Origin: a virus
Reading direction: 5' to 3' (one strand)
Length of the DNA stretch: 36,915 bases
Virus record (IMG/VR): IMGVR_UViG_3300050120_000313
Coordinates: 1 to 36,915 of that record
Part shown: piece by piece, positions 2,880 through 24,855 of the stretch
Layout of the letters: each line of letters starts with the position of its first letter
Position numbering within the stretch: position 1 is the first letter of the stretch
The notes under the pieces: model-generated
The model's input: the letters and a program-made list of their open reading frames with translations, nothing else
What the model was told of the DNA's origin: nothing
Databases searched by the model: none
Translations under genes and position numbers: made by a program

Positions 2880-2890
2880 AGGAAAGTCCC

Positions 2891-3550: not shown

Positions 3551-3758
3551 TCTGCCAACACTGCAAGGCCGGCTCGACGCGCTGAAGCTGGCGATCGCCA
3601 ACGGGCGCCAGTCGGTCAGCTATGCCGGCCGCACCACGGTCTACCGCTCTGTCGCCGATCTGCAGGCCGCGATCAAGGATGTGGAGTCGGACATGGCGGC
3701 GCTGAACGGCACCTCTGTGCTGCGCACCTACCGCTTTCATTCGCACAAGGACCTTTGA
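3540..3758 (+). CDS. gpW-like head-tail joining protein
   Basis: A 72-aa protein matching the gpW fold pattern: an N-terminal helix (LQGRLDALKLAIANG), a short beta hairpin carrying SVSYAGRTTVYRS, and a second helix (VADLQAAIKDVESDM). Lambda gpW is 68 aa with the same layout and fills the portal after packaging so the tail can attach. I chose ATG 3540, which overlaps the stop of the upstream gene by 11 nt and gives the family length; ATG 3510 would add ten residues. It sits directly before the portal gene, as W precedes B in lambda. Confidence 0.85.
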   Translation: MPADLPTLQGRLDALKLAIANGRQSVSYAGRTTVYRSVADLQAAIKDVESDMAALNGTSVLRTYRFHSHKDL

Positions 3759-3761
3759 TCG

Positions 3762-5483
3762 ATGCTGGGACGGTTCGGACGCGCTGCCAGCGCGCTCGCC
3801 GGCACGTTCGCCGGCATGTGGAGCGGTGGCCACGGTTCGCATGACGGCATCGGTCTCGAGGCCGGCCGCATGGGGCGCCGGCTCGGCAGCTGGATTCCGT
3901 CGCGCGTCCACGTCAACACCCTGATCAACCAGTCCGGGCCGAACACGCTGGCACGGGCAAGATTTCTGGCCCGCAACAACGGCTACGCCTTCAGCGCGGT
4001 CGAGTGTTTCTCCTCCAACCTGGTCGGCGCCGGCATCACGCCGAGCTGGAAATCGCCGCTGCCGGTGCCGGAGCTCGACAACGACGCTTCGGAAGAACAA
4101 ATTGGCGCGGCGAAGAAGGCCGCTAAAGGTGCCGCGGCGCAGAAGAAGGGCGTCCATGAATTATGGGCGCGCTGGACCGACGAGGCCGACGCCGAGGGCA
4201 TCACCGATTTCTATGGCCTGCAGAAGCGCATCGCGCGCGAATTGTTCATCGCCGGCGAGATCTTCATCCGGCTTCGTCCGCGAAGACTATCCGATGGTCT
4301 TTCGATTCCGCTGCAGCTCGAACTCTATCCCTCCGAGCAGCTGCCGCTGTGGCTGACCATGCCGCTCAACAACGGCAACTGGATTCGCCAGGGCATCGAA
4401 TTCGACAAGATCGGCCGGCGCGTCGCCTATCATTTCTGGAAGGTCAATCCCGGCGACATCACGCTGGCGCCGAAGTTCGGCGAGCGGGTCCGGATCCCGG
4501 CCAGCCAGATCCTGCATGTGTTTGATCCTTTGGAGGGCGGCCAGATCAGGGGCCTGTCGCGGCTGACGCCGGCGATCATCACGCTGTGGATGCTCGATCT
4601 CTATGACGACGCCGAGCTGGAGCGCAAGAAGACCGCGGCGCTGTTCTCGGTGTTCATTACCCGCCCCGACCCGGACGGCGAATTCTTCGACAACGAAAAG
4701 AAAAAGGTCGATCCCTCTGATGGTGCCGCCAGCGTCAAACTCGAGCCCGGCTCGGCGCATGTGCTGCTGCCGGGGGAGGATTTCGGCGTCGCCGCGCCGG
4801 CCGATAGCGGCAATTCATATGAGCCGTTTCAGTACCGCACCCTGGCGCGCGTCTGCGCTGCGCTTGGGTTGCCTTATGCCGGCGTCACGGGCGACATGGT
4901 GAAGGCCAATTACGGAAACCAGCGCGCCGCGATGATCGAGGCGCGACGCCGCGCCGAGGCCATTCAGCACAACATCATGGTCTATCAGTTCTGCCGGCCG
5001 ATCTTCCGCGCCTTCATGGATTCGGCGCATATCGCCGGCTCCCTCGATTTCGACGGCTATGCCGACAATCCCGGCGACTACCTCAACATGAACTGGATCC
5101 CGCCGCGCTGGATGTGGATCGATCCCCTCAAAGATCGCCAGGCCGAGATTCTGGCGGTCGACGCCGGCTTCAAGGCGCGCTCGATGGTGATCGAGGAAGA
5201 GGGCTCCGACGCCGCCGAGGTCGACCAGCGCATCGCCGAAGACAATGCGCGGGCCGAGCGGCTCGGCATCACATTCTCCGGCGTCCAGAGCCTGCGCCAG
5301 ATCCTGGCGGCGCCCCCGCCGGACAATGGCGACGCGCAGCCCGCCGAAAACGAACCTCCGGCCGCGCCGGACAACAACCAGCCGGCGCAGCAACCGCAGC
5401 GGGTCAAGAAGACCGCTCCTCCGAAACCGACGCCACCAAAGGCCGCGAACCCCAATGCCCGTAGCCTATCCCCATATCGCTGA
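3762..5483 (+). CDS. Portal protein (gpB, lambda family)
   Basis: A 573-aa dodecamer-forming portal at the capsid vertex, close to lambda gpB (533 aa). Typical lambda-portal segments include the N-terminal LARNNGYAFSAVECF region, the RQGIEFDKIGRRVAYHFWK strand pair, the ASQILHVFDP and GQIRGLSRLTPAI segment, and TGDMVKANYGNQRAAMIEARR. The last 80 residues are Pro/Ala/Gln-rich and presumably disordered. AAGGAC before ATG 3762 gives a normal ribosome site. The 3' end overlaps the protease gene by 29 nt, suggesting coupling. In lambda the portal is partly processed by the C protease; whether that happens here cannot be seen. Confidence 0.95.
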   Translation: MLGRFGRAASALAGTFAGMWSGGHGSHDGIGLEAGRMGRRLGSWIPSRVHVNTLINQSGPNTLARARFLARNNGYAFSAVECFSSNLVGAGITPSWKSPLPVPELDNDASEEQIGAAKKAAKGAAAQKKGVHELWARWTDEADAEGITDFYGLQKRIARELFIAGEIFIRLRPRRLSDGLSIPLQLELYPSEQLPLWLTMPLNNGNWIRQGIEFDKIGRRVAYHFWKVNPGDITLAPKFGERVRIPASQILHVFDPLEGGQIRGLSRLTPAIITLWMLDLYDDAELERKKTAALFSVFITRPDPDGEFFDNEKKKVDPSDGAASVKLEPGSAHVLLPGEDFGVAAPADSGNSYEPFQYRTLARVCAALGLPYAGVTGDMVKANYGNQRAAMIEARRRAEAIQHNIMVYQFCRPIFRAFMDSAHIAGSLDFDGYADNPGDYLNMNWIPPRWMWIDPLKDRQAEILAVDAGFKARSMVIEEEGSDAAEVDQRIAEDNARAERLGITFSGVQSLRQILAAPPPDNGDAQPAENEPPAAPDNNQPAQQPQRVKKTAPPKPTPPKAANPNARSLSPYR

Positions 5484-6942
5484 ACGGCTGTTCGGCCACG
5501 CGCATGCGATCGAGCCGACGGCGCTGCGCGCCATCATCGAGGGCCCGGTCGGCCGTCGCGTGCTGGCCGGCGAGCGGATCGAGATCGACAAGGATGGCAG
5601 GAAGGCCGCCAAGGCTCGCCGCGGCCGCGCCCTGGCGATGGTCGAGGCCGAACAGATCCGCGGCCGCGACGGGATGTCGGAATATGTCCTGACCAATGAC
5701 GGCGTCGCAATCCTGTCGATCGCCGGCGCGCTGTCAAAACGCTTCGACTGGCTGGCGGCGGCCTGCGGCTTTGCCACCTATGAGGCGCTCGGCGCTTCGC
5801 TCAACGCCGCGCTCGCGGATTTCCGCGTCAAGGCGATTCTGTTCGATGTCGACAGCCCGGGAGGTCAGGTCGACGGCATGCTCGATCTGGCCGATCAGAT
5901 CCTGGCGGCGCGGAGCAAGATGCCGGTCTGGGCCGTTGCCAATTCGGTCGCCGCAAGCGCCGCCTACGCGCTCGCCGGCTCCGCCGAAAAGCTCTATCTG
6001 CCGCGGCTGGCGCAGGTCGGCTCGATCGGCGCGGTCATGATGCATATCGATCAATCCGCGCAGGATCAGGCCCGCGGCCTGAAATACAGCGCGATTTTTT
6101 CCGGTAGCCGCAAGATCGACGGCTGGGATCACGCCTCGTTATCCAGCGAGGCGCGCGCGGCGATGCAGGGCCGGGTCGACCATTGCCGCCAGGCACTGGC
6201 CGACCTGGTCGGGCGCCAGGGCCGCATCAGCGCCAAGGATGCACTAGGCACAGAAGCCGCGGTTTATTCCGACACCGATGCCGTGAAGGCCGGCCTCGCC
6301 GACGGAATCCAGACCTTCGACGCGACCCTTGCGGCACTGACTCAGCAGATTTCGAAAAATTCCTCAACCCAGATATCGGCCTCGGCCGCCAACCAAGGAG
6401 CGTCTGCCATGACGACACAGAAGGATCAGTTACTCAGCGGTGCCTCGCCGACGGCTCTTGTGGCCGGCCAGACCGCTGGAGCATCCGGCGATACGGCTGC
6501 CGCTGCCGCCGAGACAGCCGCGGCGGCCGTGACGGAATCGGCCACCTCCGCGGCAAAGCCGGCCGCAGGCGAAAAGTGCCAGACCTGCGGGCAGATGATG
6601 CCCGACGATAACGATGGCGATGAGCCGGATCCGAATTCCGCCGCCTCTTCATCCGCTGCCGCGGCCGCCGCGGGCTATACCGTCGAGATGGCGATGGAGA
6701 CCATGGAGCTTTGCGCGATCGCCAAGCGCCCGGTGGCGGAAGCCAAGGCCTTCGTCGCGTCCAAGACGCCGATCGCTGGCGTCCGCTCCGCGCTGGCCGC
6801 CAAGGCCGCCGCGGAAGCCGATGCGCTGGCGGTCGACGCCACGGCGCGCCCGGCAGGGACCGCCGAGCAGGATGTCGCGGCGGCCTGGGATCAGGTCGTG
6901 ACCGAACAGAACGCCAAGCTTCCGCAGAACACCAAGCGTTAG
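5455..6942 (+). CDS. Head maturation protease, S49/SppA-like (gpC), with C-terminal scaffold domain
   Basis: A 495-aa protein with an N-terminal serine peptidase of the S49 family and a C-terminal scaffold region. Visible catalytic features are the oxyanion segment DSPGG (133-137), nucleophile Ser168 in AASAAY, the QVGSIGAVMMH strand (187-197) and the presumed general base Lys220 in GSRKIDGW. After about residue 310 the sequence becomes Ala/Thr-rich, with a CxxC pair (EKCQTCGQMM) and an acidic stretch. ATG 5455 gives the normal family N terminus; the frame is open further upstream inside the portal gene but reads as low-complexity Arg/Pro there. An internal in-frame start at 6409 gives a separate scaffold. 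Confidence 0.92.
   Translation: MPVAYPHIAERLFGHAHAIEPTALRAIIEGPVGRRVLAGERIEIDKDGRKAAKARRGRALAMVEAEQIRGRDGMSEYVLTNDGVAILSIAGALSKRFDWLAAACGFATYEALGASLNAALADFRVKAILFDVDSPGGQVDGMLDLADQILAARSKMPVWAVANSVAASAAYALAGSAEKLYLPRLAQVGSIGAVMMHIDQSAQDQARGLKYSAIFSGSRKIDGWDHASLSSEARAAMQGRVDHCRQALADLVGRQGRISAKDALGTEAAVYSDTDAVKAGLADGIQTFDATLAALTQQISKNSSTQISASAANQGASAMTTQKDQLLSGASPTALVAGQTAGASGDTAAAAAETAAAAVTESATSAAKPAAGEKCQTCGQMMPDDNDGDEPDPNSAASSSAAAAAAGYTVEMAMETMELCAIAKRPVAEAKAFVASKTPIAGVRSALAAKAAAEADALAVDATARPAGTAEQDVAAAWDQVVTEQNAKLPQNTKR
6409..6942 (+). CDS. Nested capsid scaffold (Nu3-like), internal in-frame start of the protease gene
   Basis: An ATG at 6409, in the protease frame (residue 319), is preceded by AAGGAG at a spacing of eight bases, one of the best ribosome sites in the window. 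The predicted 177-aa protein starts MTTQKDQLLSG, is rich in Ala and acidic residues, has a CxxC pair and ends in long helices (AxAxAEADALAVDA), as expected for an internal scaffold removed during maturation. Lambda makes Nu3 from the 3' end of gene C in the same way. The site is observed directly; the role is inferred from that precedent and from position just before the decoration and capsid genes. Confidence 0.82.
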   Translation: MTTQKDQLLSGASPTALVAGQTAGASGDTAAAAAETAAAAVTESATSAAKPAAGEKCQTCGQMMPDDNDGDEPDPNSAASSSAAAAAAGYTVEMAMETMELCAIAKRPVAEAKAFVASKTPIAGVRSALAAKAAAEADALAVDATARPAGTAEQDVAAAWDQVVTEQNAKLPQNTKR

Positions 6943-7044
6943 TCGTCATTTTTGTTGCTACAGCCGACGGCCGTCCGACGACGGAGCCGACGCTGCTGAA
7001 CGCGATTCCGTCGTCTTCAACACGGTCACCAAAGGAGCTTTCCG

Positions 7045-7722
7045 ATGCCCACAGGTATTGTCCAGACTGAATCCCGTCATCCCGGCGCCTTCATGGTTTC
7101 CGAGGCCAATGTTCGACGCTCGCGCGACACGTTCGTCGTGGCCTTGAGCCAGACCATCGTCGCCGGCCAGGTATGCGGCAAGACCGCCGTCATCGCCGGT
7201 GCCACTTCGAGTGTCGCGGCGGATGCCGGCAATACCGGCAACGGCGTCTTCACGCTCGATGTCACCACGCCGGTGCTGGCCGGTGCCAAGGATGGCATCT
7301 ATCGCGTCGTCAACGATCTGGTCGCCGCCAATTCCGGCGAATTCATCGTGTTCGATCCGGACAATATCGAGATCGGCCGGGTTGCCGTGGGCGCTACCTT
7401 CTCCAACCAGATCAAGTTCGTGGTAGCCGACGGCGCCACCGACTTCACGATCGGCGACGCCTTCTCGGTTACGGTTGGTCTGGAAGAGACCGACTACCAG
7501 ATGACCGCGCTTGTTTTGTCGAACACCGACGGCAGCCAGCGCGTCGCCGGCATCAGCTGGAGCAACATCACCACCGACGGCTCGAACCTTCAGTCCGGCG
7601 TGTTCATCACCCGTCAGGCCGAAGTCCGCGGCGTCGACCTGGTCTGGCCCGCTGGTATCACTGCCGCCCAGCTCGCCGAGGGCCTCCGCGCCCTGGAGAA
7701 GCTCGGCATCATCGTTCGCTGA
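7045..7722 (+). CDS. Head decoration protein (gpD-like) with an inserted domain
   Basis: The 225-aa protein is about twice the length of lambda gpD (110 aa). The N-terminal segment (about 1-50, with SRDTFVVALSQTIVAGQV) and C-terminal segment (about 155-225, ending VDLVWPAGITAAQLAEGL and LGIIVR) resemble the D trimer fold, where the pattern L-W-P is conserved near the C terminus. Between them, residues about 60-145 form a separate beta-rich block (GNTGNG, TPVLAGAKDGIYRV, EFIVFDPDN, FSNQIKFVVADG) that looks inserted. AAAGGAG precedes ATG 7045. Position directly before the major capsid gene supports the call. The insert would be displayed on the capsid surface if the D fold is right. Confidence 0.8.
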   Translation: MPTGIVQTESRHPGAFMVSEANVRRSRDTFVVALSQTIVAGQVCGKTAVIAGATSSVAADAGNTGNGVFTLDVTTPVLAGAKDGIYRVVNDLVAANSGEFIVFDPDNIEIGRVAVGATFSNQIKFVVADGATDFTIGDAFSVTVGLEETDYQMTALVLSNTDGSQRVAGISWSNITTDGSNLQSGVFITRQAEVRGVDLVWPAGITAAQLAEGLRALEKLGIIVR

Positions 7723-7791: not shown

Positions 7792-8838
7792 ATGATCACT
7801 ATGGACGCATTCCGCGCAGACGCGTTTTCCGCCGTCTCGCTCACCCAGGCCGTCGACAAGCTGGGTTACGTGCCGCAATACCTCGGCACCATCCCGGGCC
7901 TGTTCACGCCGGCGCCGGTCCGCACCACCGCGGTCTGGATCGAGGAGCGCTCCAACGCTCCGGCCCTGATCCAGACCACCGATCGCGCTTCGCCGCCGAA
8001 GGTGCGTGGTGCCGAACAGCGCGGCGCGCGATCCTTCAAGACCAAGACCCTCGGCGAGGGCTCGCGCATCATGGCGGACGAGCTGCAGAACATCCGCGCC
8101 TTCGGCACCGAAACCGAGATGAAGACGCTGATGACCGAGCTCGCCCGCCGGCAGCTCCTGATCAAGAACGACATCGAACTCACCATGGAAAATTGGCGGC
8201 TCGGCGTCATCCAGGGCAAGCTGCTGGATGCCGACGGTTCCACGATCTATGACTGGAACGCGGAGTTCAGCCAGTCGCAGGGTTCCGAAGTCAATTGGGA
8301 CCTGCAGAACACGTCTCCCGCTTCCGGCATCCTACGCCAGACCTGCAACACCACGGTGCGGCATATCACCCGCAAGCTGCTGGGCGTCGGAGGTTCGAAC
8401 ATCAAGATCATGGCGGCCTGCGGCGACAAGTTCTGGGATGCCTTCACCTCGCATCCCGAAGTGCGCCAGACCTACCTCAACTGGATGGCAGCCGCCGACC
8501 TACGCACCGGGAATGCCTGGGAGACCTTCGACTTCGGCAACATCACCTGGTTCAACTATCGCTCGACCGACGATGGCGACACCACGGACACGCCTGTCGT
8601 CGGCATTCCCTCGACCCGCGCAAAGTTCTTCCCCGTAGGCGCTGGTATCTTCCAGATGGCCTATGCGCCGGCGCCGCGCTTTGAGTTCGCCAACACCCTG
8701 GGCATGCCGACCTATTCCTGGATGGTGCTCGACGAGAAGCGCGACATGTGGGCGGACTGCGAGACCTTCTCCTATCCGCTCGCGGTCTGCACCATGCCGG
8801 GCGCTCTTCTGAGCGGCAAGCGCACCAGCGCCGACTGA
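7792..8838 (+). CDS. Major capsid protein (gpE, lambda family)
   Basis: The 348-aa HK97-fold coat protein of the lambda E family (341 aa in lambda). Family-typical segments are FSAVSLTQAVDKLGYVPQYLG at the N terminus, RTTAVWIEER, the RSFKTKTLGEGSRIMADELQNIRAFG region, and the C-terminal YAPAPRFEFANTLG and LAVCTMPGALLSG stretch. It follows the decoration gene after 69 non-coding bases and is followed by a GC-rich hairpin at 8862-8883. Codon use is strongly GC3-biased, fitting high expression. Confidence 0.96.
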   Translation: MITMDAFRADAFSAVSLTQAVDKLGYVPQYLGTIPGLFTPAPVRTTAVWIEERSNAPALIQTTDRASPPKVRGAEQRGARSFKTKTLGEGSRIMADELQNIRAFGTETEMKTLMTELARRQLLIKNDIELTMENWRLGVIQGKLLDADGSTIYDWNAEFSQSQGSEVNWDLQNTSPASGILRQTCNTTVRHITRKLLGVGGSNIKIMAACGDKFWDAFTSHPEVRQTYLNWMAAADLRTGNAWETFDFGNITWFNYRSTDDGDTTDTPVVGIPSTRAKFFPVGAGIFQMAYAPAPRFEFANTLGMPTYSWMVLDEKRDMWADCETFSYPLAVCTMPGALLSGKRTSAD

Positions 8839-8906: not shown

Positions 8907-9125
8907 ATGAAAAAGAACAAGAAGGCGACGACGCTTTTTTCGGAACCGGTGAAGCGATCGGAGACGGGGAATTTCCGCATGCGTCTTGCGGCCGGAAAAT
9001 ACGCGATCAACGCCACCGAGGCCGAGGTCCATCTCGACGGCGCGCGCATTGCCGGCGGGGATGGCAGTTTCGAATTCGATATCGCCCGGGAAGCCTGGGT
9101 CGAGATCCACATCGTCAGGAGCTAG
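8907..9125 (+). CDS. Small hypothetical protein (72 aa) after capsid
   Basis: The protein starts with a very basic segment (MKKNKKATT) followed by a predicted beta-rich body (NFRMRLAAGKYAINA, VHLDGARI, FEFDIAREAWVEIHIV). ATG 8907 is the first start after the post-capsid hairpin; an AGAGA segment upstream is a weak ribosome site. It occupies the position of the lambda FI gene but does not resemble FI in sequence. A small beta-fold protein here could be a second capsid decoration protein, but I do not recognise a family. Confidence 0.6.
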   Translation: MKKNKKATTLFSEPVKRSETGNFRMRLAAGKYAINATEAEVHLDGARIAGGDGSFEFDIAREAWVEIHIVRS

Positions 9126-9129
9126 ATAA

Positions 9130-9420
9130 ATGGCAACGCTTTGGGTTACCGAATTCGACCAGGTCAGCTCCGCATTCGGTGCGCTAGCCGCGGCAAAGCT
9201 TCCGCCGGTCGCCGAGCAGAAGGTAGCGTTTGGCACCCCGACGGCCGCGCTGGGCGCGACGACCGTGATGGTGCGCCTGCGGGCCGACGCCTCATGCTCG
9301 GTGCACGTCAGCGACGCCGGCGATGCTGCTACCACCACCATGACGCCCTTGGATGCGAATGAGCCGGAATATTTTCTGGTGGCTGCCGGCAAGAAGATCA
9401 ACGCGATCGCGAACCCGTAA
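9130..9420 (+). CDS. Small beta-rich structural protein (96 aa), hypothetical
   Basis: Starts MATLWVTEFDQVSSAFG with AGGAG before ATG 9130, four bases after the previous stop. The body (VRLRADASCSVHVSD, EYFLVAAGKKINAIA) looks like a single beta-sandwich domain. Proteins of this size and style are common beside capsid genes in rhizobial phages, but no function is known to me. A capsid or fibre decoration role is plausible from location. Confidence 0.68.
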   Translation: MATLWVTEFDQVSSAFGALAAAKLPPVAEQKVAFGTPTAALGATTVMVRLRADASCSVHVSDAGDAATTTMTPLDANEPEYFLVAAGKKINAIANP

Positions 9421-10370: not shown

Positions 10371-11216
10371 ATGGCAAATAGGTTTTGGGTTGGCGGGACC
10401 GCAACATGGGACGGTACGACTACAGCGAATTGGTCAACGACTTCTGGCGGGGGTAGTGGCGCTTCCGTTCCGGGGACAGCAGACGTTGCTGTGTTCGATG
10501 GAGGGTCCGGGGCCGCTGTTGTCACGGTAGCCGCAAGCATCGGTGGCACCAACACTCTTTCCGGAATTACACTCACAGGGACGGGTGGTTTCGCAGGTAC
10601 GCTGGATTTCAGTGTTAATAATCCCAGTTTGACGATGGCGTCGTTCAGCGTCACTGGCACGGCTGCACGGACGGTAAATCTTGGAACTGGCACGTTCACA
10701 CTAACAGGTATCAACGGGAACATCTGGGATGCAACAGTTGTAACAGGCCCTCTTACTTTAAGTGCCGGGTCAGCCACTTTAGTTGCTTCCAACACCACTC
10801 CGAATGCACCACGCACATTCGTACTGGGCGGTCAAATCTATGGAACGATTTCGGTCGGAGCGGTAACAAATTCAGAAACGATTGTATTCACTACGGGAAC
10901 CGTTGGTACGCTCAACATAACGGCACCGCAGAATTTGAATGTCACAGGGGGTAATACGCTAACGGTAACAAACCCATTTAATTGGGTTGGAACTAGCGGT
11001 TCGCAAATAGGAGTGATGTCGAATGCAGTCAATGTTTTGGCTGCTATTTCGGTAGCGTCGGGTGCTCCCACAATTGCATGGGCTGCGGTGAGGGCTTTAA
11101 CTTTTACCGGTGGAGCAACATTCACCGCTTCCAATTCATTCGATTTGAAATCCAATTCTGGAATATCCATAACCCCGCCCTCGGGTGGTGCCGGCGGCGG
11201 AGTCTTTGGCTCATGA
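10371..11216 (+). CDS. Beta-strand repeat virion protein (281 aa)
   Basis: The N terminus RFWVGGTATWDGTTTANWS followed by SVPGTADVAVFDGGSG is the start typical of beta-solenoid or 'autotransporter-like strand repeat' proteins. The rest is a series of Thr/Val/Gly strands such as LSGITLTGTGGFAGTLDF and TVGTLNITAPQNLNVTGG that would stack as a parallel beta-helix. Base composition drops towards AT relative to the head genes. Its stop overlaps the start of the following spike gene (ATGA), so the two are probably translated together and may form a two-part fibre. Confidence 0.62.
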   Translation: MANRFWVGGTATWDGTTTANWSTTSGGGSGASVPGTADVAVFDGGSGAAVVTVAASIGGTNTLSGITLTGTGGFAGTLDFSVNNPSLTMASFSVTGTAARTVNLGTGTFTLTGINGNIWDATVVTGPLTLSAGSATLVASNTTPNAPRTFVLGGQIYGTISVGAVTNSETIVFTTGTVGTLNITAPQNLNVTGGNTLTVTNPFNWVGTSGSQIGVMSNAVNVLAAISVASGAPTIAWAAVRALTFTGGATFTASNSFDLKSNSGISITPPSGGAGGGVFGS

Positions 11217-13432
11217 CGGTAGGTCTGCTAAATCTAGCACGCTCTGCGGCTATTCCGCGCGACGCCAACGGATGGTCAATTTTTACGCCCGCTCCGAGTA
11301 CAAAGATCATTTATGTCGCTGCCCCCGGCAGCGGTGGTTCTGACAGCAACGACGGATTGACGACCTCAACGCCCGTCACCACGCTGGCGCATGCAAAAAC
11401 ATTGATGCGAGGCCAAGGCTTTTCCGATTGGGTTCTTCTCAACAAGGGCGATACTTGGAACGAAGCTTTCGGTAATACGACAGTCGCGGGGCCGTCTGCC
11501 GGATGGTATTCGATGTTTGGTTCCTACGGAGCCGCCACTGGCCGGCCCAAGCTGAACTGCGGGAATTCCGCAGGTCTTTTCTTCGCCTCGCTGAACGGCG
11601 CGAATGTGGTGATAAACGGCCTCGATATTTATTGCGATGTCAATGATCCGGCAAGCGCGACCTACACAGCCCCGATTGCCATAAGCGCAGGAGCCCTGTC
11701 GGGCACTAGTGTGTTGACGTTTGCCTCACCACTTCCTTTGACAGTCCAGACCGGAATATCCGTCTACAATCTGACAACCGTCGCGGCAATTAGCAATACC
11801 AGCAACACTACTGCGACGGTTTCCGGCGATCGTCTGTCTCTCACCATCAGCACGCCACTTGCTGCAAATGTGTCCACCGGCGATTTGATCGAGTTTCATT
11901 GCGATGCGACCGGAATCGACGCACTTGGCAAGACGACTTTTCTCCATGTCGAAGATTGCAAACTCAGTTTTTGGCATAACGACGGCATCAATATCAGCAC
12001 CAATGGCGTCGACTGGCCTTTTAAGAACTACAACATTCGTCGTTGCGTAATTGTCGATGGCACTAGAAACACGCAGGGGTGCATTGTTCAAGATAATGCT
12101 TTGACCGTGACTCCTTTGACCAATCTTCCAACCAATTTGATCGAAGATTGTTTTTTCGATCACAACGGTTGGCAGCAGCAGGATAATTCGAATCCTCTAA
12201 GCCCGACGCTGATTGCTTCAGGAGGCACCGTATTTTGCCACGATGTGTATATGCACGATCTTTCTGGCAGCCTGACCCTTCAAAACAATATCTTAGCTAA
12301 TCCGTCTTTGAGTGGCGTCCAGCATCGCTCGAACGGCGTCGCATACAATAACGCGTTTATTCGCTGTCCAGTAGGGCTTAGTGTAGGGGGCGCTACTGGA
12401 ATGACAGCGGCAAGTTATAATACTTTTTCCGAAACCTGTGAAACCAAATTAACCATTCGAGCTACCAGCGCGATTACGAGTGCCGCTGGCGGAACACCAA
12501 ATGTTTTAAACTTCGACTTGGTTCCAGCTATGATTCCGGTAAGCGGTTGTAGAGTACGTAACCTTACAAACCCTTCTTCGATCTCGACGGCCAGTCCGCC
12601 CCTGGTAACGGGAAAAACCGCGACGACTGTTACCATTTTTTCTAATGTTCTATCCGACGTACAGGCCGGGGATGTCATCTGTTTCTTCACAGAGGAAGGA
12701 GCAAGTGCGAACCTTGGGTCTAATTCGGACCTCTATTTGCCTCTCGGACAAGGGGCTTGTGAGTTTGGCCCGCACAACGTTCTTTGTGCTCCGGCCACAT
12801 GGGGCATCTTCAACGGGAGAGGGATTACCAACACCTTTATGACCGCCTTCGCGCCATCAAATGTTCACGACAATTGGCTTATTGGTCAGTTCTACAGCAT
12901 TCAAGATAACGCCACCATCACGGGCGCGGTCTCCGACGCCAACGGAACCAAAGTAACCGTTCAAGCCACATCTAGTTCGGGCACTGCTGGGGCGTTTCTA
13001 GCTGGCCAGCCGATCACGATCTCGGGCATCACGTCGGGAACCACCGAACTAAACGGGACGTGGACAATCTTATCGGTTCCAGATACCTCTCACATCGTCA
13101 TTCCGGTGACGTTCGTACACACTTTCGTCGCGCCATCGATCGGAAATGTCGGGGTGTTTAACGGAGGAAACGTCTACACCAGCAACCACCAGGTTAATCC
13201 GGTCCATGCCAATCCGTTCACGGCGGGGATTGCGGCCCCGGCGACGTTCACCCTGGCCGGCACACCAACGGTCCCGGCTTATATGGCTTCGATTGGAGCC
13301 ACGGCCACCACAGAGGCATTCCTAGCTGCGTGCCGACTTCAGAGCAAGGATACGTGGGATGTGCGCTACACGGCTAACGCCTTGAACAATTACCTACGCG
13401 CGCAGACGAACGCGGCTATCCCGCTTCAGTAA
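11213..13432 (+). CDS. Right-handed beta-helix tailspike/polysaccharide-binding protein (739 aa)
   Basis: ATG 11213 overlaps the preceding stop by four bases, and GGAG lies about ten bases upstream; the frame is open further upstream but only as an out-of-frame overlap. The N-terminal segment KIIYVAAPGSGGSDSNDGL...TPVTTLAHA is the classic opening of parallel beta-helix proteins (DUF1565/pectate-lyase-like). Asn- and Asp-rich turns recur through residues about 130-450 (NNAFIRCPVG, DCKLSFWHNDGINIS). A later Thr/Ser-rich domain (about 600-680) resembles a carbohydrate-binding sandwich. It probably recognises or cuts a surface glycan; catalytic residues cannot be assigned. Its last 39 bp overlap the opposing acyltransferase gene. 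Confidence 0.72.
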   Translation: MTVGLLNLARSAAIPRDANGWSIFTPAPSTKIIYVAAPGSGGSDSNDGLTTSTPVTTLAHAKTLMRGQGFSDWVLLNKGDTWNEAFGNTTVAGPSAGWYSMFGSYGAATGRPKLNCGNSAGLFFASLNGANVVINGLDIYCDVNDPASATYTAPIAISAGALSGTSVLTFASPLPLTVQTGISVYNLTTVAAISNTSNTTATVSGDRLSLTISTPLAANVSTGDLIEFHCDATGIDALGKTTFLHVEDCKLSFWHNDGINISTNGVDWPFKNYNIRRCVIVDGTRNTQGCIVQDNALTVTPLTNLPTNLIEDCFFDHNGWQQQDNSNPLSPTLIASGGTVFCHDVYMHDLSGSLTLQNNILANPSLSGVQHRSNGVAYNNAFIRCPVGLSVGGATGMTAASYNTFSETCETKLTIRATSAITSAAGGTPNVLNFDLVPAMIPVSGCRVRNLTNPSSISTASPPLVTGKTATTVTIFSNVLSDVQAGDVICFFTEEGASANLGSNSDLYLPLGQGACEFGPHNVLCAPATWGIFNGRGITNTFMTAFAPSNVHDNWLIGQFYSIQDNATITGAVSDANGTKVTVQATSSSGTAGAFLAGQPITISGITSGTTELNGTWTILSVPDTSHIVIPVTFVHTFVAPSIGNVGVFNGGNVYTSNHQVNPVHANPFTAGIAAPATFTLAGTPTVPAYMASIGATATTEAFLAACRLQSKDTWDVRYTANALNNYLRAQTNAAIPLQ

Positions 13433-14383
13433 CGCAGAAAATATCCATCTTTTAAATCTAACGTCGATAAGTTCGTATGCTACAGCCGCCACGACGAATG
13501 CGGAAGCTAACAAAAACGCTGGACTGATGAATCCAAAAACCTTGTAGCAGAGAACGAACACGGGAAGTTGCAACAGATAGAGCGAGTAAGAAATGTCGCC
13601 GAGGCGATCCAAAATTTCGGATGATCGAAGCTTTCCGGATCGCGACAAAAGAACCACCGAAAAAGAGAGAACGAACGTCACCACGGCCAACGGCTCGTTG
13701 TTGATGGGTGAAAACCAAACCAGCAGAGATCCCATTAACAGCAAGATTGCGGCAAGCAAGTTGTCTCTGTTAAAATAGAGGATAAAACCGGTGGCGAATG
13801 GCCAGAAGTATTTCACGACATTGGCCTTGAGAGCCATAGTGTAAATCCATCCTCCATCAAACTTAATCGGCATCAGATAGAACGTGGCCGAAATGACCAT
13901 CAATGCTGCTAATGTCAACAACGAAGCGCGCTTCAAAAATGGCGATGCGAGATAGAAAGCCGATTCGACGGCAAGCGACCAAACGACTCCGTTGAAAGCC
14001 ACGCTCTTTACCACAAACATCTGAAGCATAAGAATGTTTCCGATGGCAGTCGCCGCTCCCCTGGCTTCAAGTTCGTACATTGGTAATTGAAAGTTACCTA
14101 GCCACACTTCCAGAACAATCCCGGAGAGCACAGCGAAAAAATACATTGGGTAAATTCGTTTAAATCGCCGAAAATAAAATCCAGATTCGTCTCTATCCAG
14201 CGAAGCTGCGATGGAAAATCCGGAGACTAAGAGAAATCCGACGACCGCCGCTTTGCCACCAAACATCTCAAGTCCGGTCGAGATCGCGTCACGTTTGAAC
14301 CAAACCAAATGCGCCCCGCAGACAATGGTCGCTAGGGTAATTCGGAGGCCGGCTAACAGGCTCCAATTAATTTCGTTAGGCAT
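13394..14383 (-). CDS. Membrane acyltransferase 3 (OafA/O-acetyltransferase family)
   Basis: A 329-aa polytopic membrane protein with the landmarks of the acyltransferase-3 family: LRITLATIVCGAHLVWF with His25 in the first membrane segment, GFLLVSGFSI (49-58), the arginine motif FYFRRFKRIYPMYF (69-82) and VVWSLAVESAFYL (133-145). Such enzymes move acetyl groups to O-antigen or other surface sugars, and phage copies cause serotype conversion. It is the only minus-strand gene inside the head-tail block, is visibly AT-richer than its neighbours and ends convergently inside the spike gene, all signs of a separately acquired and expressed cargo gene. No clear promoter was found in front of it. Confidence 0.88.
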   Translation of the reverse strand: MPNEINWSLLAGLRITLATIVCGAHLVWFKRDAISTGLEMFGGKAAVVGFLLVSGFSIAASLDRDESGFYFRRFKRIYPMYFFAVLSGIVLEVWLGNFQLPMYELEARGAATAIGNILMLQMFVVKSVAFNGVVWSLAVESAFYLASPFLKRASLLTLAALMVISATFYLMPIKFDGGWIYTMALKANVVKYFWPFATGFILYFNRDNLLAAILLLMGSLLVWFSPINNEPLAVVTFVLSFSVVLLSRSGKLRSSEILDRLGDISYSLYLLQLPVFVLCYKVFGFISPAFLLASAFVVAAVAYELIDVRFKRWIFSALLKRDSRVRLRA

Positions 14384-14502
14384 CCCGCCACGCTACTCCA
14401 CGTTGCCATCCCCGCCTAGCCCAACTTCGGTCTTGACAGCCTGAAATCCTCACTCCCTCAGGGGGAGCGGGAAACCCTTTCGTCCGAACGGACACTTGAA
14501 CA

Positions 14503-14817
14503 ATGACCTATGCCTCCGATACCGCCCAGGCCGTTGTCGACGACACCTATGCGGAATTCGGGCGCGCGGCGACCTTTACGCCCTCAGGGGGATCGCTAGT
14601 CCCGTGCACCATTATCGTCGACCTTCGCGACGAAGGCTCTCGGCCTGACGATGGAAGACCGATCGCGGGGCAGATCACGATCGAGGTTCGCGCCAGTGAA
14701 ATCGCTTCACCCGCCCATGGCGATAGCTTTGCGTTTGATACCCGTACCGTCACCGTGATGAACCGCCCGATGCTCGACGAGGAAGAGGGCCTGGTCTGGA
14801 AGATGTGGGCGACATGA
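14503..14817 (+). CDS. Head-tail joining protein (gpFII-like)
   Basis: 104 aa, against 117 for lambda gpFII. The N terminus (TAQAVVDDTYAEFGRAATF) is followed by strands PCTIIVDLRD, QITIEVRASEI, DSFAFDTRTVTVM and a C-terminal LVWKMW, the strand pattern of the Phage_attach family. FII forms the ring that closes the head and docks the tail. The gene resumes the lambda order after the accessory block. Its stop overlaps the next ATG (ATGA). Confidence 0.78.
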   Translation: MTYASDTAQAVVDDTYAEFGRAATFTPSGGSLVPCTIIVDLRDEGSRPDDGRPIAGQITIEVRASEIASPAHGDSFAFDTRTVTVMNRPMLDEEEGLVWKMWAT

Positions 14818-15470
14818 TCAGCGCGGATTTGATGGCCCCGATCGACATCGACCTGCTGCTGGCCGACGGATTGTCGCCGGAGGCACAGAGTGCCGCCATC
14901 GCCGATTTTGCACAAAGCGTGCTGGACGAGGCGATCGCGATCGATACCGAGGCGCTCGGCGAGGCGCCGGAACATCAGACCATCGTCGACGGCGTCCTGG
15001 GCGCAGCGCTGGACAGTGTCCGTCCGGACGGCACCATCGTCTTTCAGTTCGATCTGGCAGGCGAGGTGGTGGCCTGGATCGAGCAGCAGCTGATCGTTCA
15101 CTCGCCGGTCGGATCCGGCAAGTTCGATCCGCATCCTGGGCTCTATCAGAGATCTCATGCGGTCTATGCCGATGGCGCGAAAGTCGATGCCGCTTCGATT
15201 CCTCCGGGCACAAAGGAAATCGTGCTGGCGCCGACGGTGCCATATGCGCGCCTGATCGAGCCCGATGGCCCGCGTCCAGGTGAATCGCGCCAGGCGCCGG
15301 ATGGCGTCTACCAGGCCATCGCCGAGCTGGCGCGGCGGCGATTTGCCGGCACGGAGATCAGTTTTCAGTACCGCACCGTGCCGGACATGGTCGCGCTGCC
15401 GCCGTCAGGCCGGAGGCACAAGGAAAGCCCGCGCGACCTGCCGCAGCCGGCCATCGTCATCGAACTGTAG
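14814..15470 (+). CDS. Minor tail protein Z-like / tail completion protein
   Basis: The 218-aa product begins at ATG 14814, overlapping the FII stop by four bases; a GTG at 14805 is possible but less likely. The central segment LIVHSPVGSGKFDPHPGLYQRSH is the hallmark of gpZ/HK97 gp10-type tail completion proteins, which fold around a compact beta core with long helices. A YARLIEP segment and a C-terminal PPSGRR tail follow. In lambda, Z acts with U in finishing the tail end that binds the head. Confidence 0.75.
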   Translation: MISADLMAPIDIDLLLADGLSPEAQSAAIADFAQSVLDEAIAIDTEALGEAPEHQTIVDGVLGAALDSVRPDGTIVFQFDLAGEVVAWIEQQLIVHSPVGSGKFDPHPGLYQRSHAVYADGAKVDAASIPPGTKEIVLAPTVPYARLIEPDGPRPGESRQAPDGVYQAIAELARRRFAGTEISFQYRTVPDMVALPPSGRRHKESPRDLPQPAIVIEL

Positions 15471-15482
15471 AGCACCCATCGC

Positions 15483-15896
15483 ATGGCAAGTGGAACGGTC
15501 AAGGCCGCGGTCGAGACGCGCCTGCAATCATGGGCGTCGTTGGCGCAATATCCGTTTTTCGACGAGAACGACGTCGCTCCTTTGCCGAAGACGCTGCATC
15601 TGACGATCGAATATCCGGTCGCCAACGAGGACCGCATCACCATTGGCGCCAAGCCTGCGATCTTCCGCGAAACCGGCGCCATCCGCTTTGTGATTCATAT
15701 CCTCAATATGAGCGGGCTTTCTTCCGCGCTCACGGCGATCGATTCCCTGCGCGACCTGTTTCGCGAACAAACGCTCGGCGCCGGCATCGAGACCTTCGAA
15801 GCGCCGCCTGCGGTATTCGATAAATCCAATCGCAGCAGCACGTTCTATCTGCTCGCCTCCGTCGTCACCTATCGCTTCGACCTCTTGAAATCCTAA
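15483..15896 (+). CDS. Tail terminator protein (gpU-like, DUF4128)
   Basis: 137 aa, close to lambda gpU (131 aa). The helix VKAAVETRLQSWA, the LHLTIEYPVAN and GAIRFVIHILNMSG strands, a central helix (LTAIDSLRDLF) and a final strand SVVTYRFDLL match the DUF4128/tail-terminator layout. This ring stops tail-tube polymerisation at the correct length. It sits between Z and the tail tube as in lambda. Confidence 0.8.
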   Translation: MASGTVKAAVETRLQSWASLAQYPFFDENDVAPLPKTLHLTIEYPVANEDRITIGAKPAIFRETGAIRFVIHILNMSGLSSALTAIDSLRDLFREQTLGAGIETFEAPPAVFDKSNRSSTFYLLASVVTYRFDLLKS

Positions 15897-15909
15897 AGGG
15901 AGCCCGACC

Positions 15910-17394
15910 ATGGCTGATCTCCAATCGACGAACCGCGTAGCGCTTGCCAAGGTCCGCGAGGCCGCCTTCGCGGTGACGCCGGCGAATCCGGTGTTCAAGG
16001 CGATCCGCCAGACATCGAGCGGTCTAAACGCCAATCCGAAGACCGTCATCACCTCCGAAATCCGCCCCGATCGTCAGGTCACGGATCTGATCCTGGTCGG
16101 CCAGGATGCCTCGGGCGCGGTCGGCGGCGAGCTCGCGTTCGCGGTGGCCGATGACGATCTCGAGGAGGCGCTGCAGGGCACCTGGTCGAACAATCCCTCG
16201 ATCACGGTGGCGACCATCGACACCGAAATCAGCGATGTCTCGGCCACGACGCTGACGGTTGCTTCTGGAGGCGCGGCGTTCGTCGCCGGCATGCTGACGT
16301 TGACCTCGGGTTTCACCACGCTGGGCAACAATAAACTGGAGCGCGTCAACTCCAGCTCCGGAATCACCATCGTCTATCCGGCCGCGACCTTCACGGCCGA
16401 GGCGGCGCAGATTCCGGTCGGCGCCTGCGTCCGCCAGATTGGTTTTCAGGGCGCCTCCGCCGACCTCGCCGCGGTGACGTCAGGTGGCAATGGCCTGACC
16501 TCGACCGTTCTCGATTTCACCACGTTTGGCATCACGGTCGGCAAATGGCTCAAGATCGGCGACGGCGACAATGCCGGCTGCGCGTTTACCGGCACTCCCG
16601 CCAACAACGGCTTCTGCCGGGTCTCCGCGGTCGCGGCACACAAGATTTCGTTCAGCCAGGTGCCCGCCGGCTGGGCAGCAGACGCCGGCACCGGCGTGAC
16701 GCTGTCGGTTTTCTCCGGCGATTTCCTGACCAACGCGTCGAGCAAGCGCTCCAACACCATCGAGCGGCAATATCTCGATCATTCGCCGGTGACCTATGAA
16801 TATCTGGTCGGCATGACCTTGAACACGCTGCAGATCGACGCCAAGGCGCAGGCGATCGCGACTTATACCAAGAATTATATCGGCCAGAGCGCCTCGACCA
16901 CCACGGCGCGGAAGGCCGGTGCCACCGATTTGGCGGCGCCGACCTACAACGTGCTCAACACCTCGACCAATGTCGGGCGCATCGGCTTCAACGGCTCGCC
17001 GATCACCGGTCCTAATTTCGTGATGGGCGCGACCATCATCGTCAACAACAACATCCGCGCCCAGCAGGCGGTCGGTTCGGTCGGCGCCGTCGGTACCGGC
17101 AACGGCGAATTTACGTTGACCGGAACGCTTGATACTTATTTCGGCGACCGCACCATCTACAACGACATCATCAACAACACGCTGACCTCGTTCGACATAC
17201 GGGTCGGCCGATCCGACGGCAACCGCGAAACCATCCTGTTCGACCTGCCCAGCATCAAGCTTGGATCGGGCTCGCCCAGCGTCAGCGGAAAAAATACCGA
17301 CGTGATAATCTCGGCCGGCTTCACCGCGTTTCGCGACGCGGCGCTGCTCTACACCATGTCGATCGGGCGTTTTTGGTATCTGCCCATCGTCTAA
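15910..17394 (+). CDS. Major tail tube protein (Phage_tube_2-like, gpV role)
   Basis: A 494-aa tube protein, longer than lambda gpV (246 aa). The N-terminal region (STNRVALAKVREAAFAVTPANPVFK, SEIRPDRQVTDLILVGQDASG) and VGGELAFAVADDDLEEALQGTW fit the Phage_tube_2 family common in alphaproteobacterial phages. Residues about 100-270 form an extra beta-rich stretch with repeated DVSATTLTV and ADLAAVTSGGNGLTSTVLD segments, probably surface domains on the tube. The C-terminal half (NTIERQYLDHSPVTYEYLVGM onwards) resumes the tube fold. GGGAG precedes ATG 15910. Confidence 0.83.
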   Translation: MADLQSTNRVALAKVREAAFAVTPANPVFKAIRQTSSGLNANPKTVITSEIRPDRQVTDLILVGQDASGAVGGELAFAVADDDLEEALQGTWSNNPSITVATIDTEISDVSATTLTVASGGAAFVAGMLTLTSGFTTLGNNKLERVNSSSGITIVYPAATFTAEAAQIPVGACVRQIGFQGASADLAAVTSGGNGLTSTVLDFTTFGITVGKWLKIGDGDNAGCAFTGTPANNGFCRVSAVAAHKISFSQVPAGWAADAGTGVTLSVFSGDFLTNASSKRSNTIERQYLDHSPVTYEYLVGMTLNTLQIDAKAQAIATYTKNYIGQSASTTTARKAGATDLAAPTYNVLNTSTNVGRIGFNGSPITGPNFVMGATIIVNNNIRAQQAVGSVGAVGTGNGEFTLTGTLDTYFGDRTIYNDIINNTLTSFDIRVGRSDGNRETILFDLPSIKLGSGSPSVSGKNTDVIISAGFTAFRDAALLYTMSIGRFWYLPIV

Positions 17395-17398
17395 GCTC

Positions 17399-17417
17399 GA
17401 TGCGCGCTACGCGCATC
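17399..17417. promoter_or_regulatory. Perfect hairpin after the tail-tube gene
   Basis: GATGCGCG and CGCGCATC form a perfect 8-bp stem with a CTA loop, five bases after the tube stop and well before the chaperone ribosome site. There is no T-run. Like the hairpin after the capsid gene, it follows a protein needed in hundreds of copies and could stabilise or segment the late mRNA. Confidence 0.5.
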
Positions 17418-17448
17418 ATCGCCTTCCAAACCAACCTGGGGAATTGTC

Positions 17449-17862
17449 ATGAAACTGTCTGCATTGAAGGTCGATTCAGCACTCGCCGAGCAGGGCGACT
17501 GGGTCGAAAACATTCCGGACCTTCCGGGAATTCGCATCAAGGCCCGCGGCACCAACAACAAGGATTACCGGATCCTGGAGGGCAAGCTGGTGCGCGAGAT
17601 CCCGCGCACCGAGCGCGCCGAGGGCGTCAGCCCGGAAGACCAGGACCGCATCGCCGGCAGGCTTCTACTGGAGACGGTTGTTCTCGATGTTGAAGGTCTG
17701 ACCGAAGACGACGGCGAAACGTCGATCCGCTATACCAAGGAGCTCGGCGCGAAATTGTTGCTCGATCCCGATTTCAAGGTATTCCAGGCGGGCGCAGCTT
17801 ATGCCGGATCTGTCGTGGCGCAGCGCCGCAAGGCGGTCGAGGCGACCGAGACAAAAAACTGA
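17449..17862 (+). CDS. Tail assembly chaperone gpG
   Basis: 137 aa, against 140 for lambda gpG. The N-terminal beta segment (VDSALAEQGDWVENIPDLPGIRIKARG) and the charged helical C-terminal part match short tail assembly chaperones encoded between the tube and tape-measure genes. GGGGAA lies before ATG 17449. The last in-frame codons are ACA AAA AAC followed by TGA, forming the frameshift site described in the next entry. This zero-frame product binds the tape measure during tail assembly. Confidence 0.85.
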   Translation: MKLSALKVDSALAEQGDWVENIPDLPGIRIKARGTNNKDYRILEGKLVREIPRTERAEGVSPEDQDRIAGRLLLETVVLDVEGLTEDDGETSIRYTKELGAKLLLDPDFKVFQAGAAYAGSVVAQRRKAVEATETKN

Positions 17863-18182
17863 TCGACGCCCTGATCTGGCAGCTGGATTGGGGCGGGAAT
17901 TTCGACACCATCGTCAAGGCAGCGCGCGAAGCCGGTCTTGACGTTTCGACGCTGCCGTGTGTGCAGACCAGGGTCGAGCTGTTCGGTCACCTGCAGCCGG
18001 ACTGGGACGCATTCGCGGCCCTTTCCACTGATCGTCCGATGGGCATGGCTCACGGTCCGATCCCCTGGACCTCGATCGACCGCTACGCCGCGCGCTACGG
18101 CATCATCAAGGATGATTTCGACCGCCTGGCCGCGCTGATCCGCAGCATGGACAAGGCGTTTCTCTCCTACAAGAAAGAATGA
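17449..18182 (+). CDS. Tail assembly chaperone fusion gpG-T made by -1 frameshift
   Basis: A slippery heptamer A AAA AAC lies at 17853-17859 in the gpG frame, directly followed by the gpG stop. Slipping back one base continues into CTG ATC GAC and reads LIDALIWQLDWGG... to 18182, giving a fusion of about 244 aa. The downstream frame has no credible start with a ribosome site of its own, and its sequence (PWTSIDRYAARYGI, FDRLAALIRSMDKAFL) fits the T region. A GAGG at 17839-17842, ten bases before the slip site, could act as an upstream stimulator. Coordinates are 17449-17859 joined to 17859-18182. Lambda uses G GGA AAG at the same place. Confidence 0.87.
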
Positions 18183-18189
18183 TCTGATC

Positions 18190-20721
18190 ATGCCGAGCGT
18201 CGACCAGATCCGCACCATCACGATCAAGGGCAAAGCCGATGGCGTCGACGACGCCACGGCCGCGCTCGATCGCCTGACGGCGTCGATCCAGTCGGCCAAC
18301 GACAACCTAGCCAAGAGCAATGCCGCGGCCAATGACAACAGCTCTGGCTTTCGCCTGACCGGCGAGAGTGCGGCCACCGCCGCGAACCACCTGCGACAAG
18401 CAGCCGAAGCCGCCTATGCGTTCTCGCCGGCTTTCCGGGGCGTCGTCAACGAAATGGCCGTTCCCGCGCTGGGCGCCGCCAACACGGCGCTGGCGGGGGT
18501 AGCCGCAGGCATCGTCACCGCGACGAATTATGCGGGTACGGGTTTGATCGCGCTGGCGGGTGCAGCCGAAAAAGCCAGCCCGAGTCTTATGGCCTATACC
18601 TCCGGCGTGAGGGCTACTGGCATCGCCATGGAGGCATTCACCCCTACGGTAACGACCGCCGCCGGCTCGTTGCTGGCGTTCTTGTCGCCGGCCCTTCGCG
18701 TGGTTGGATGGTTTGCGCTAGCGGTCAAGGGCATCGAGACGGTCGGAGAGGCGTGGCAGCTCGGCAACGCAAAGCTGGCGGAATATGTCGCGCTTTCGGA
18801 GAAGGCTGCAGCGTCCGGCCTCACTACCGATTTTTTCCAGAGGATTTCGAAAGCGGCGACCGATGCAAAATTACCCGCAGATGCCCTGCTGGCCACGCTA
18901 ACGAAAATAAATGACTCAACCGCCGGAAAATTAGGCGGAAGTGCAGCGCAGTTAGCAACCGATCCACTGCAAACCGCTGGAAACTTTCAGGGCAACACGG
19001 GCGTCATGCAGTTGCAGACTGCCAACAGCACTCAGGAAAAACTTGTCGCTATCGTTAGCCTTTATGATCAGGCCGTGGCGAAGGGCGAACGTCTCGCCGC
19101 CCTGGACGCAGTAAGGGCGGTGGCCGGCGACGACATAGCGAATAAGGCCGCCCTTGATAACGGATACATGGATAAGATGCTGGCCGCGGCTACAGCGATC
19201 TCGCAGGAGTCGCTGATATCGACTGCCGATATCGCTAATGCCGTCGAGTTGCAGAATAGACTGGACGCCGCGGAAAAGATTTTGTCCGAACGCTGGCATC
19301 CGATTCAGGACCTGCTCACCGCCGGCGGCATCGCGATGAAAGAGGCGTGGGTTGGCATCGTCGAACAGATTGCTGCTGCCGTTGACGGACTGGTGAAGGT
19401 TCTGGAATACGTCATCAAGGTGGACTCGCAGGAATTCGGAAAAGGCTGGAACAGCCTCTTCACCGGGATCACAAATCTGACGACAGCTCCCGAAAGCAGG
19501 GCGGCCTCGGAAGCCTCTTACGGAATATCCAGCAGCCCTGCCGACATCGCTTCGCAGGCAATGGAAAACCAGCGCGCGTCGTTGCAGGGACAAGCGCAGA
19601 TGGCTGACGCCCGGCGAAGGCTTGCCACTGGGCTCAACCGAAACTTCGATACGTCGAAGCCGACTATTGATGATCCCAACAAGGATGTGCCCGATACCTC
19701 AGCGTATGATCGCGCTACGGGTATGATCCAAAAATATATCGAGACCACAAAGGCCGCGGCTCTTTCGGTGAGCGACGCTGCCGGCGAACAGGAAAAATTC
19801 AAGGCGATCGCCCAACTGACCGCAGCGGGCCTCAAGGACGGCCTGACGCCGGAGGCTGCAAAAGCAAAAGCCGAATTGAGTGGTCTCGGCGAAAAGGCCG
19901 GTCTGGCGGCCGATGCGCTGGCGAAAGCCAAGATGGCCAGCTCGATCGATTTCGGCAGCAAGACCGCGTTCCTGTCGCAGGATGATGTCGCCATCGCCAC
20001 CCAGCTCAAGGGCATCTATCAAAACGATGTGCCTGCCGCACTGAACTCGACCTATGCGGCGGGCATCCGCGTCAACAACGCATTCAAGGGCATTTCGTCG
20101 GCGATCGAGACGAACCTGACGCAGGGCTTGACCGACATCGTATCCGGCGCGAAGTCCGCTGGGCAGGCGTTTTCCGATATGGGCAAGGCCATCGTCACCG
20201 CGATCGAGCAGATGATTATCAAGATCGCGGTGGTGCAGCCGTTGATGCAGGCGTTGCAGAATTCAATCGGGGGTACCGGCTTGAGCAGTCTGCTTGGGCT
20301 TGGCGGCGCTGTAACCGCCAGCGGCTCGATTGCTGGAGCCGTCGGGCCAACCTCGGTTGGCGGCGCGGCTTTGGTCGGCCTGCATGGCGGTGGCATTGTC
20401 GGCTCTGAGGCGACATTCACGCGCTATGTGCATCCCTCCTATTTCGATGATGCCCGGCGATTCCATACCGGCGGCATTGCCGGCGACGAAGTTCCCATCA
20501 TCGCGAAAAAGGGCGAGGGAGTTTTCACGCAGGGACAAATGGCGGCGATGGGCGGCGGCGGCACAACGCACAATATCACCTATCAAATCAACGCCAGCGG
20601 GGCCGATAGCGGAACGGTGGAGCGCATCAAGGCGGTCCTGGCGCAGCACGCCAAGGCGATCGGCGCGCAGAATCGATCGATGCAGAGCGCGCAGCGCTAC
20701 CAGGCGACGGGAGTATCGTGA
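18190..20721 (+). CDS. Tape measure protein (gpH-like)
   Basis: 843 aa, close to lambda gpH (853 aa), so a tail near 130-150 nm is expected. The N terminus (TITIKGKADGVDDATAALDRL) is the usual tape-measure start. Long helical stretches include hydrophobic segments at about 95-125 and 155-180, likely membrane-passing parts. Near residue 645 the segment GLTDIVSGAKSAGQAFSDMG starts the lambda-type C-terminal domain. The end (GLHGGGIVGSE, FHTGGIAGDEVPIIAKKGEGVFT) is the common glycine-rich terminus of this family. It follows the G/GT chaperone pair directly. Confidence 0.94.
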   Translation: MPSVDQIRTITIKGKADGVDDATAALDRLTASIQSANDNLAKSNAAANDNSSGFRLTGESAATAANHLRQAAEAAYAFSPAFRGVVNEMAVPALGAANTALAGVAAGIVTATNYAGTGLIALAGAAEKASPSLMAYTSGVRATGIAMEAFTPTVTTAAGSLLAFLSPALRVVGWFALAVKGIETVGEAWQLGNAKLAEYVALSEKAAASGLTTDFFQRISKAATDAKLPADALLATLTKINDSTAGKLGGSAAQLATDPLQTAGNFQGNTGVMQLQTANSTQEKLVAIVSLYDQAVAKGERLAALDAVRAVAGDDIANKAALDNGYMDKMLAAATAISQESLISTADIANAVELQNRLDAAEKILSERWHPIQDLLTAGGIAMKEAWVGIVEQIAAAVDGLVKVLEYVIKVDSQEFGKGWNSLFTGITNLTTAPESRAASEASYGISSSPADIASQAMENQRASLQGQAQMADARRRLATGLNRNFDTSKPTIDDPNKDVPDTSAYDRATGMIQKYIETTKAAALSVSDAAGEQEKFKAIAQLTAAGLKDGLTPEAAKAKAELSGLGEKAGLAADALAKAKMASSIDFGSKTAFLSQDDVAIATQLKGIYQNDVPAALNSTYAAGIRVNNAFKGISSAIETNLTQGLTDIVSGAKSAGQAFSDMGKAIVTAIEQMIIKIAVVQPLMQALQNSIGGTGLSSLLGLGGAVTASGSIAGAVGPTSVGGAALVGLHGGGIVGSEATFTRYVHPSYFDDARRFHTGGIAGDEVPIIAKKGEGVFTQGQMAAMGGGGTTHNITYQINASGADSGTVERIKAVLAQHAKAIGAQNRSMQSAQRYQATGVS

Positions 20722-24074: not shown

Positions 24075-24085
24075 GGGAATAGCAA

Positions 24086-24799: not shown

Positions 24800-24855
24800 G
24801 CGCCAAGTTCCAGCGCCATACCGCCAATCCCTATTTTATAGGAAGTCAATAAATC

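Follow-up and report, generated by a model that had tools for sequence, protein, structure and literature searches.

A possible receptor-masking pair, a putative beta-helix protein gene and a convergent acyltransferase-3 gene, in a variable slot of the head operon of a lambda-like siphovirus

The window analyzed here, the whole 36,915-base pair (bp) IMG/VR record IMGVR_UViG_3300050120_000313, corresponds by gene content to a lambda-like siphovirus. In the middle of its late operon (11 to 14 kb), between the capsid and FII genes, a large plus-strand gene, whose product may be a beta-helix protein, lies tail to tail with a minus-strand gene for a membrane acyltransferase of the acyltransferase-3 (AT3) type. 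The features of the pair are as follows:

11213-13432, plus strand: putative beta-helix surface-binding (spike/adhesin) protein, 739 amino acids (aa)
13394-14383, minus strand: AT3 membrane O-acyltransferase, 329 aa, PF01757
13394-13432: convergent overlap of both 3' ends, 39 bp

Both open reading frames (ORFs) are open throughout, and their tail-to-tail arrangement with a 39-bp overlap, first described in a reading made without database searches (here the sequence-only reading), was confirmed exactly. An alternative opening of the plus ORF exists upstream, at 11078. The sensible start, however, is the ATG at 11213, because it shares the four bases ATGA with the stop codon of the gene before it (10371-11216); given this overlap, the ORF probably belongs to the late plus-strand operon and is translated with it. 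The 39 bp shared by the pair code for acyltransferase residues ca. 318 to 329, outside the Pfam domain (residues 12 to 302), and comparable phage pairs show either gaps of 12 to 39 bp or a 51-bp overlap, so that the overlap carries little meaning and was ruled out as a special device.

On its sequence, the minus-strand gene can be firmly assigned to the AT3 enzymes of the surface-sugar O-acyltransferase family; the sequence-only reading had called it an O-acyltransferase. The protein matched PF01757 with an E value of 1.1e-22 (81 bits, with a gathering cutoff of 31) and the PHROG family phrog_3333, "O-acetyltransferase," with 3.5e-27. The motifs published for AT3 proteins, R/K-X10-H in the first transmembrane (TM) helix, RXXR in the first cytoplasmic loop, and VxxFFx(I/V/L)SG(F/W/Y) (PMC9558356), were all three found, as R14-X10-H25, R73-F-K-R76, and VVGFLLVSGF at residues 47 to 56, the last with L replacing the second F of the consensus. 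The hydropathy profile had many hydrophobic stretches, roughly 9 to 10 by eye versus the ca. 10 TM helices expected for AT3, and an AlphaFold model built without an alignment was all-helical and of low confidence (predicted local distance difference test [pLDDT] of 46). The gene was likely acquired from bacteria, because the closest sequences found were plasmid-borne bacterial acyltransferases from Nostoc (33% over 93%) and Variovorax (39% over half). IMG/VR scans gave no confirmed relative of the enzyme.

The plus-strand protein, proposed before as a beta-helix spike, fell short of the normal thresholds for every family in Pfam, PHROGs, and NCBIfam. Its central piece hit PF13229 (Beta_helix) with an E value of 0.0059, below the cutoff, and a beta-helix spike is weakly supported. 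Weak similarity (E = 0.02) links residues 14 to 102 with a protein of Rhizobium phage RHph_X2_25 whose gene is close to that for lysozyme. Nothing usable as a relative appeared in a pattern scan of IMG/VR, in phage and plasmid tblastn searches, among PDB sequences, or among 297 + 385 genomes (order plus class of the Hyphomicrobium metagenome-assembled genome L050). Profile searches detected no depolymerase domain, and the AlphaFold model, also without an alignment, was uninformative (pLDDT of 32). The locus represents a spike adjoined by a convergent AT3 gene only if the plus ORF is a spike.

A comparison with other phages, which the sequence-only reading had suggested, showed convergent spike and AT3 genes in Shigella phage Sf6, Escherichia phage phiV10, Salmonella phage BTP1, and Gordonia phage Doggs. 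The comparison phages were chosen by AT3 similarity, together with known seroconversion phages, and this nonrandom choice shows recurrence, not a rate. The Sf6 pair consists of gene 14 for the tailspike (13719-15590, plus) and the convergent oac gene 15 (15624-16625, minus), 33 bp apart; superinfection is blocked because acetylation impedes the endorhamnosidase (PMC9558356). Like the pair described here, that of Sf6 belongs to a temperate phage and consists of a plus-strand spike and an adjoining, convergent, minus-strand single-domain AT3, of 333 versus 329 aa and with the invariant AT3 residues common to both. However, the two enzymes are only about 20% identical, and in Sf6 the pair, for which a putative oac promoter and terminator are annotated, follows the tail genes and adjoins int; it has also been studied functionally. 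In phiV10, a tail fiber gene (20996-23623, plus) faces oac (23636-24652, minus) across 12 bp. Its AT3 is annotated in the record as acetylating the O-antigen and functioning in superinfection immunity, but it aligns with only 13% identity to the enzyme described here, and the pair is found at the tail fiber/lysis junction rather than between capsid and neck genes.

The BTP1 pair has a tailspike gene (14178-16163, plus), described as convergently transcribed (PMC4413052), and gtrC (16203-18125, minus), with a 39-bp gap. Expression of GtrC is necessary and sufficient for protection, and both receptor masking and a block of superinfection have been shown; GtrC shields the O-antigen from the tailspike, and loss of gtrC shortens the O-antigen unless the tailspike is deleted (PMC4413052). 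GtrC, an OafB-type acetyltransferase, has the RXXR motif as well but carries an extra periplasmic C-terminal domain of ca. 270 aa and is accompanied by a gtr operon remnant, while the enzyme here is the short, AT3-only form. In Doggs (MT498059), the annotated tailspike gp29 (24474-26675) and gp30 (26625-27755) overlap tail to tail by 51 bp, which resembles the overlapping 3' ends found here. The product of gp30, annotated as hypothetical in a record without a seroconversion label, is an AT3 by PF01757 (1.9e-24), and the tailspike is weakly pectate-lyase-like. The host of Doggs, however, is actinobacterial, its AT3 is about 20% identical to ours, and the spikes are dissimilar in sequence.

Other AT3 genes were located one or two genes away from a tail or tail fiber gene (D3, Magia, and Halomonas phage 4908), inside the tail cluster (YPHTV-1), or beside repressor or integrase genes and not spikes (Mycobacterium abscessus prophage GD17-2 and Vibrio phage yong1). 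In Hum25 (Arthrobacter; L062, 6983-10222) and Magia (Burkholderia; L154, 3444-5408), the AT3 gene points in convergent orientation toward a gene for a GDSL/SGNH esterase, which places an enzyme that adds acyl groups beside one that likely removes them. The usual site of spike/AT3 pairs, common but not defining, is after the tail genes or near int, while here the integrase gene is at 33 kb. The convergent layout was already known from the four phages above, and what is distinctive here is its site within the head operon, with an antisense enzyme placed midway in the late operon, and in an exchange slot. The genes of this slot and its boundaries are as follows:

8908-9125, plus strand: small protein in place of lambda FI, conserved left boundary of the slot (ORF x8748 has matches in L002, L003, L004, and L007)
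9130-9420, plus strand: 96-aa protein, first slot gene, 36% match to a slot protein of L005
9576-10361, plus strand: 261-aa accessory protein, C-terminal part 39% identical to an equivalent-slot protein of L079
10371-11216, plus strand: 281-aa repeat-rich protein with no family assigned, low in guanine plus cytosine (GC) like the pair
14503-14817, plus strand: gpFII-like head-tail attachment protein (PF05354), conserved right boundary of the slot

Among related phage records (L numbers), L003, L004, L012, L014, L019, L050, L083, and L085 had little or nothing in the slot, with only 7 to 342 bp from the major capsid protein stop to the FII start. The distance from capsid to FII gene is 5,665 bp in our phage and 6,257 bp in L007 (IMG/VR 3300050137_000047), whose capsid protein is 91% identical. 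The L007 slot carries on the plus strand genes for an 872-aa immunoglobulin-like protein, a SASA-type carbohydrate esterase, and a 373-aa protein, followed after 16 bp by a minus-strand S-adenosylmethionine (SAM) methyltransferase gene. It thus has, at the same FI-like/FII position, adhesin-like plus-strand genes and then one minus-strand modifying enzyme, but with these four genes, dissimilar in sequence, in place of spike and AT3. The slots of L002/L059 and L005 hold other beta-rich-looking proteins and no evident minus-strand gene, and in more distant phages with a different head module (L070, L074, L079, and L080) the equivalent place is filled with differing genes. At 785-7501, L080 carries relatives of the slot genes of L007 (11350-17316), with matches of 32% to the esterase, 31% to the C-terminal domain of the 872-aa adhesin-like protein, and 35% to the 373-aa protein (312 aa in L080), which suggests that the slot is exchanged horizontally between phages with different head modules.

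The three genes in 10371-14383 have a GC content of 0.48 to 0.53 and a GC content at third codon positions (GC3) of 0.46 to 0.57 (0.529 and 0.568 for the plus gene of the pair, 0.480 and 0.552 for the AT3 gene), versus roughly 0.58 to 0.65 and 0.70 to 0.86 in the other head and tail tube genes. This fits a recent acquisition. Given the GC contrast and the differing slot contents among relatives, the region is a variable insertion slot. The further claim that the two genes are likely to move together was not supported, since neither gene was found in any of the related records fetched, which show only that slot contents differ between phages. The full records L007, L003, L005, L004, L002, L059, L012, and L019 gave no AT3 match, although several are fragments and absence is not proven. 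No relative carries the pair, which was rejected as a conserved feature of this phage group. In a separate observation, slot proteins of L002 (11300-13531), L005 (11239-12814), L070 (3385-4512), and L079 (3556-3969) start, by eye, with Sec-signal-peptide-like segments, which is odd within a structural operon.

The remaining features identified in the window are as follows:

101-2879: terminase
3762-5483: portal
5245-6942: protease
7045-7722: decoration protein
7792-8838, plus strand: major capsid protein E, PF03864
15483-15896: tail terminator
15910-17394: tail tube
18190-20721: tape measure
22437-24074, plus strand: J-like tail-tip/tail fiber protein, phrog_5616 (8e-96) and phrog_31; PF13550 at 0.00017, below the cutoff
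24856-26865, plus strand: tail fiber/spike candidate, pectate-lyase-like, phrog_38233 (1.2e-29); PF12708 at 7.5e-5, below the cutoff
27362-28081: amidase
32767-33891, minus strand: tyrosine integrase, phrog_1 (2e-47) and PF00589 (2.9e-15)

The stretch from 22.4 to 26.9 kb, with the J-like tail-tip gene and the tail fiber gene (both of intermediate GC content, 0.56), is the conventional receptor-binding region. The integrase gene makes lysogeny, which the sequence-only reading had assumed, plausible, and the phage was classed as temperate; no repressor was identified among the ORFs scanned in this genome. The host is likely an alphaproteobacterium, since the nearest capsid proteins in named bacterial genomes were those of Chelatococcus, Hyphomicrobium, and Methylobacterium (56 to 59% identity).

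Taken together, the pair could be a lysogenic-conversion cassette of the Sf6, phiV10, and BTP1 kind, with the enzyme masking the receptor of the spike as the sequence-only reading had suggested, a proposal by analogy that we consider evenly balanced. In the lysogen, the AT3 protein in the inner membrane would acylate (probably acetylate) a surface polysaccharide. The late protein from the plus strand, made during lytic growth, would be a virion-borne adhesin of beta structure that binds and possibly cleaves sugar, and the acylated polysaccharide would be bound or cleaved less well by incoming or freshly released virions. With the convergent layout, a promoter of its own could drive the AT3 gene at times when the late operon is not transcribed. 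This proposal draws on the family and motifs of the enzyme, the integrase, the same layout in four other phages, and the masking precedent in BTP1 and Sf6, by which receptor masking is plausible here. The L007 slot, with adhesin-like genes and a convergent methyltransferase, would be the same layout with other parts, and the low GC content of 10371-14383, read as recent acquisition, points in the same direction.

Several observations weigh against the cassette. No clear sigma-70 promoter for the minus gene stood out in 14384-14502, nor was a terminator predicted at the convergent junction. The plus protein, besides its weakly supported beta-helix or spike nature and poor structure model, is encoded among head genes and not tail-tip genes, and with the J-like and pectate-lyase-like proteins holding the usual position, receptor binding need not be its role; its earlier designation as a receptor-binding spike was not supported. 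The AT3 genes near int or repressor genes in GD17-2 and yong1 indicate that adjacency to a spike is not needed for function, and with no relative carrying the same pair, selection for keeping both genes together lacks support.

In a rival reading, the slot is a hot spot that gathers unrelated accessory genes, and the two genes are cargo independent of each other, the AT3 gene being a stand-alone moron that alters the host surface (perhaps against other phages or for the benefit of the host) and the plus protein a functionally unlinked, head-associated adhesin. We regard this as a possible, somewhat doubtful explanation. It agrees with a slot that is empty or almost empty in eight relatives and filled with other genes in L002/L059, L005, L007, L070, L074, L079, and L080, and with canonical tail-tip and tail fiber genes elsewhere in the genome. 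However, at least four other phages also have adjacent, convergent spike and AT3 genes, and the glycan-themed slots of several relatives (adhesin-like proteins, SASA esterase, and methyltransferases) suggest more than random cargo. A broader version of the cassette proposal, in which the slot serves an alphaproteobacterial phage group as an exchange site for matched glycan cassettes, swapped as a unit, seems unlikely. Each would combine a capsid- or neck-borne adhesin with an antisense, lysogen-expressed mask (acyltransferase here, methyltransferase in L007) hiding exactly the glycan of the adhesin, and the idea rests on these two examples.

It is more improbable still that the AT3 mainly shields the polysaccharide of the lysogen or of the releasing cell from a depolymerase spike of the phage itself, for which BTP1 is a precedent (PMC4413052), since this needs a spike that is an enzyme produced in some lysogen cells, and no depolymerase domain was detected in it. 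Least credible is a regulatory overlap, with late-operon antisense transcription silencing the AT3 gene in lytic growth and vice versa; transcripts reaching the tail genes must indeed cross the AT3 gene, with no predicted terminator at the junction, but the layout has the same effect with or without overlap, and Sf6, phiV10, and BTP1 have gaps instead.

If the receptor-masking cassette is real, pairs of the Sf6/BTP1 type would extend to phages probably infecting alphaproteobacteria and could sit within a head operon, while the current understanding of superinfection exclusion would stay unchanged. As such gene pairs recur among phages of Shigella, Salmonella, E. coli, and Gordonia, with one more lineage here, gene order is a usable hint, in that an AT3 gene tail to tail with a large beta-rich ORF of no family suggests that the ORF encodes a sugar-binding virion protein.

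Two further observations concern the related records. Downstream of the capsid gene of L020 (13166-17669), plus-strand genes for a methyltransferase, a sulfotransferase, a B12-binding radical SAM protein, and an NAD-dependent epimerase possibly form a surface-modification island. The end of L002 and the start of L059, both from sample 3300045000, overlap in translation (TIGGVTAT), and the two records are probably pieces of one phage.

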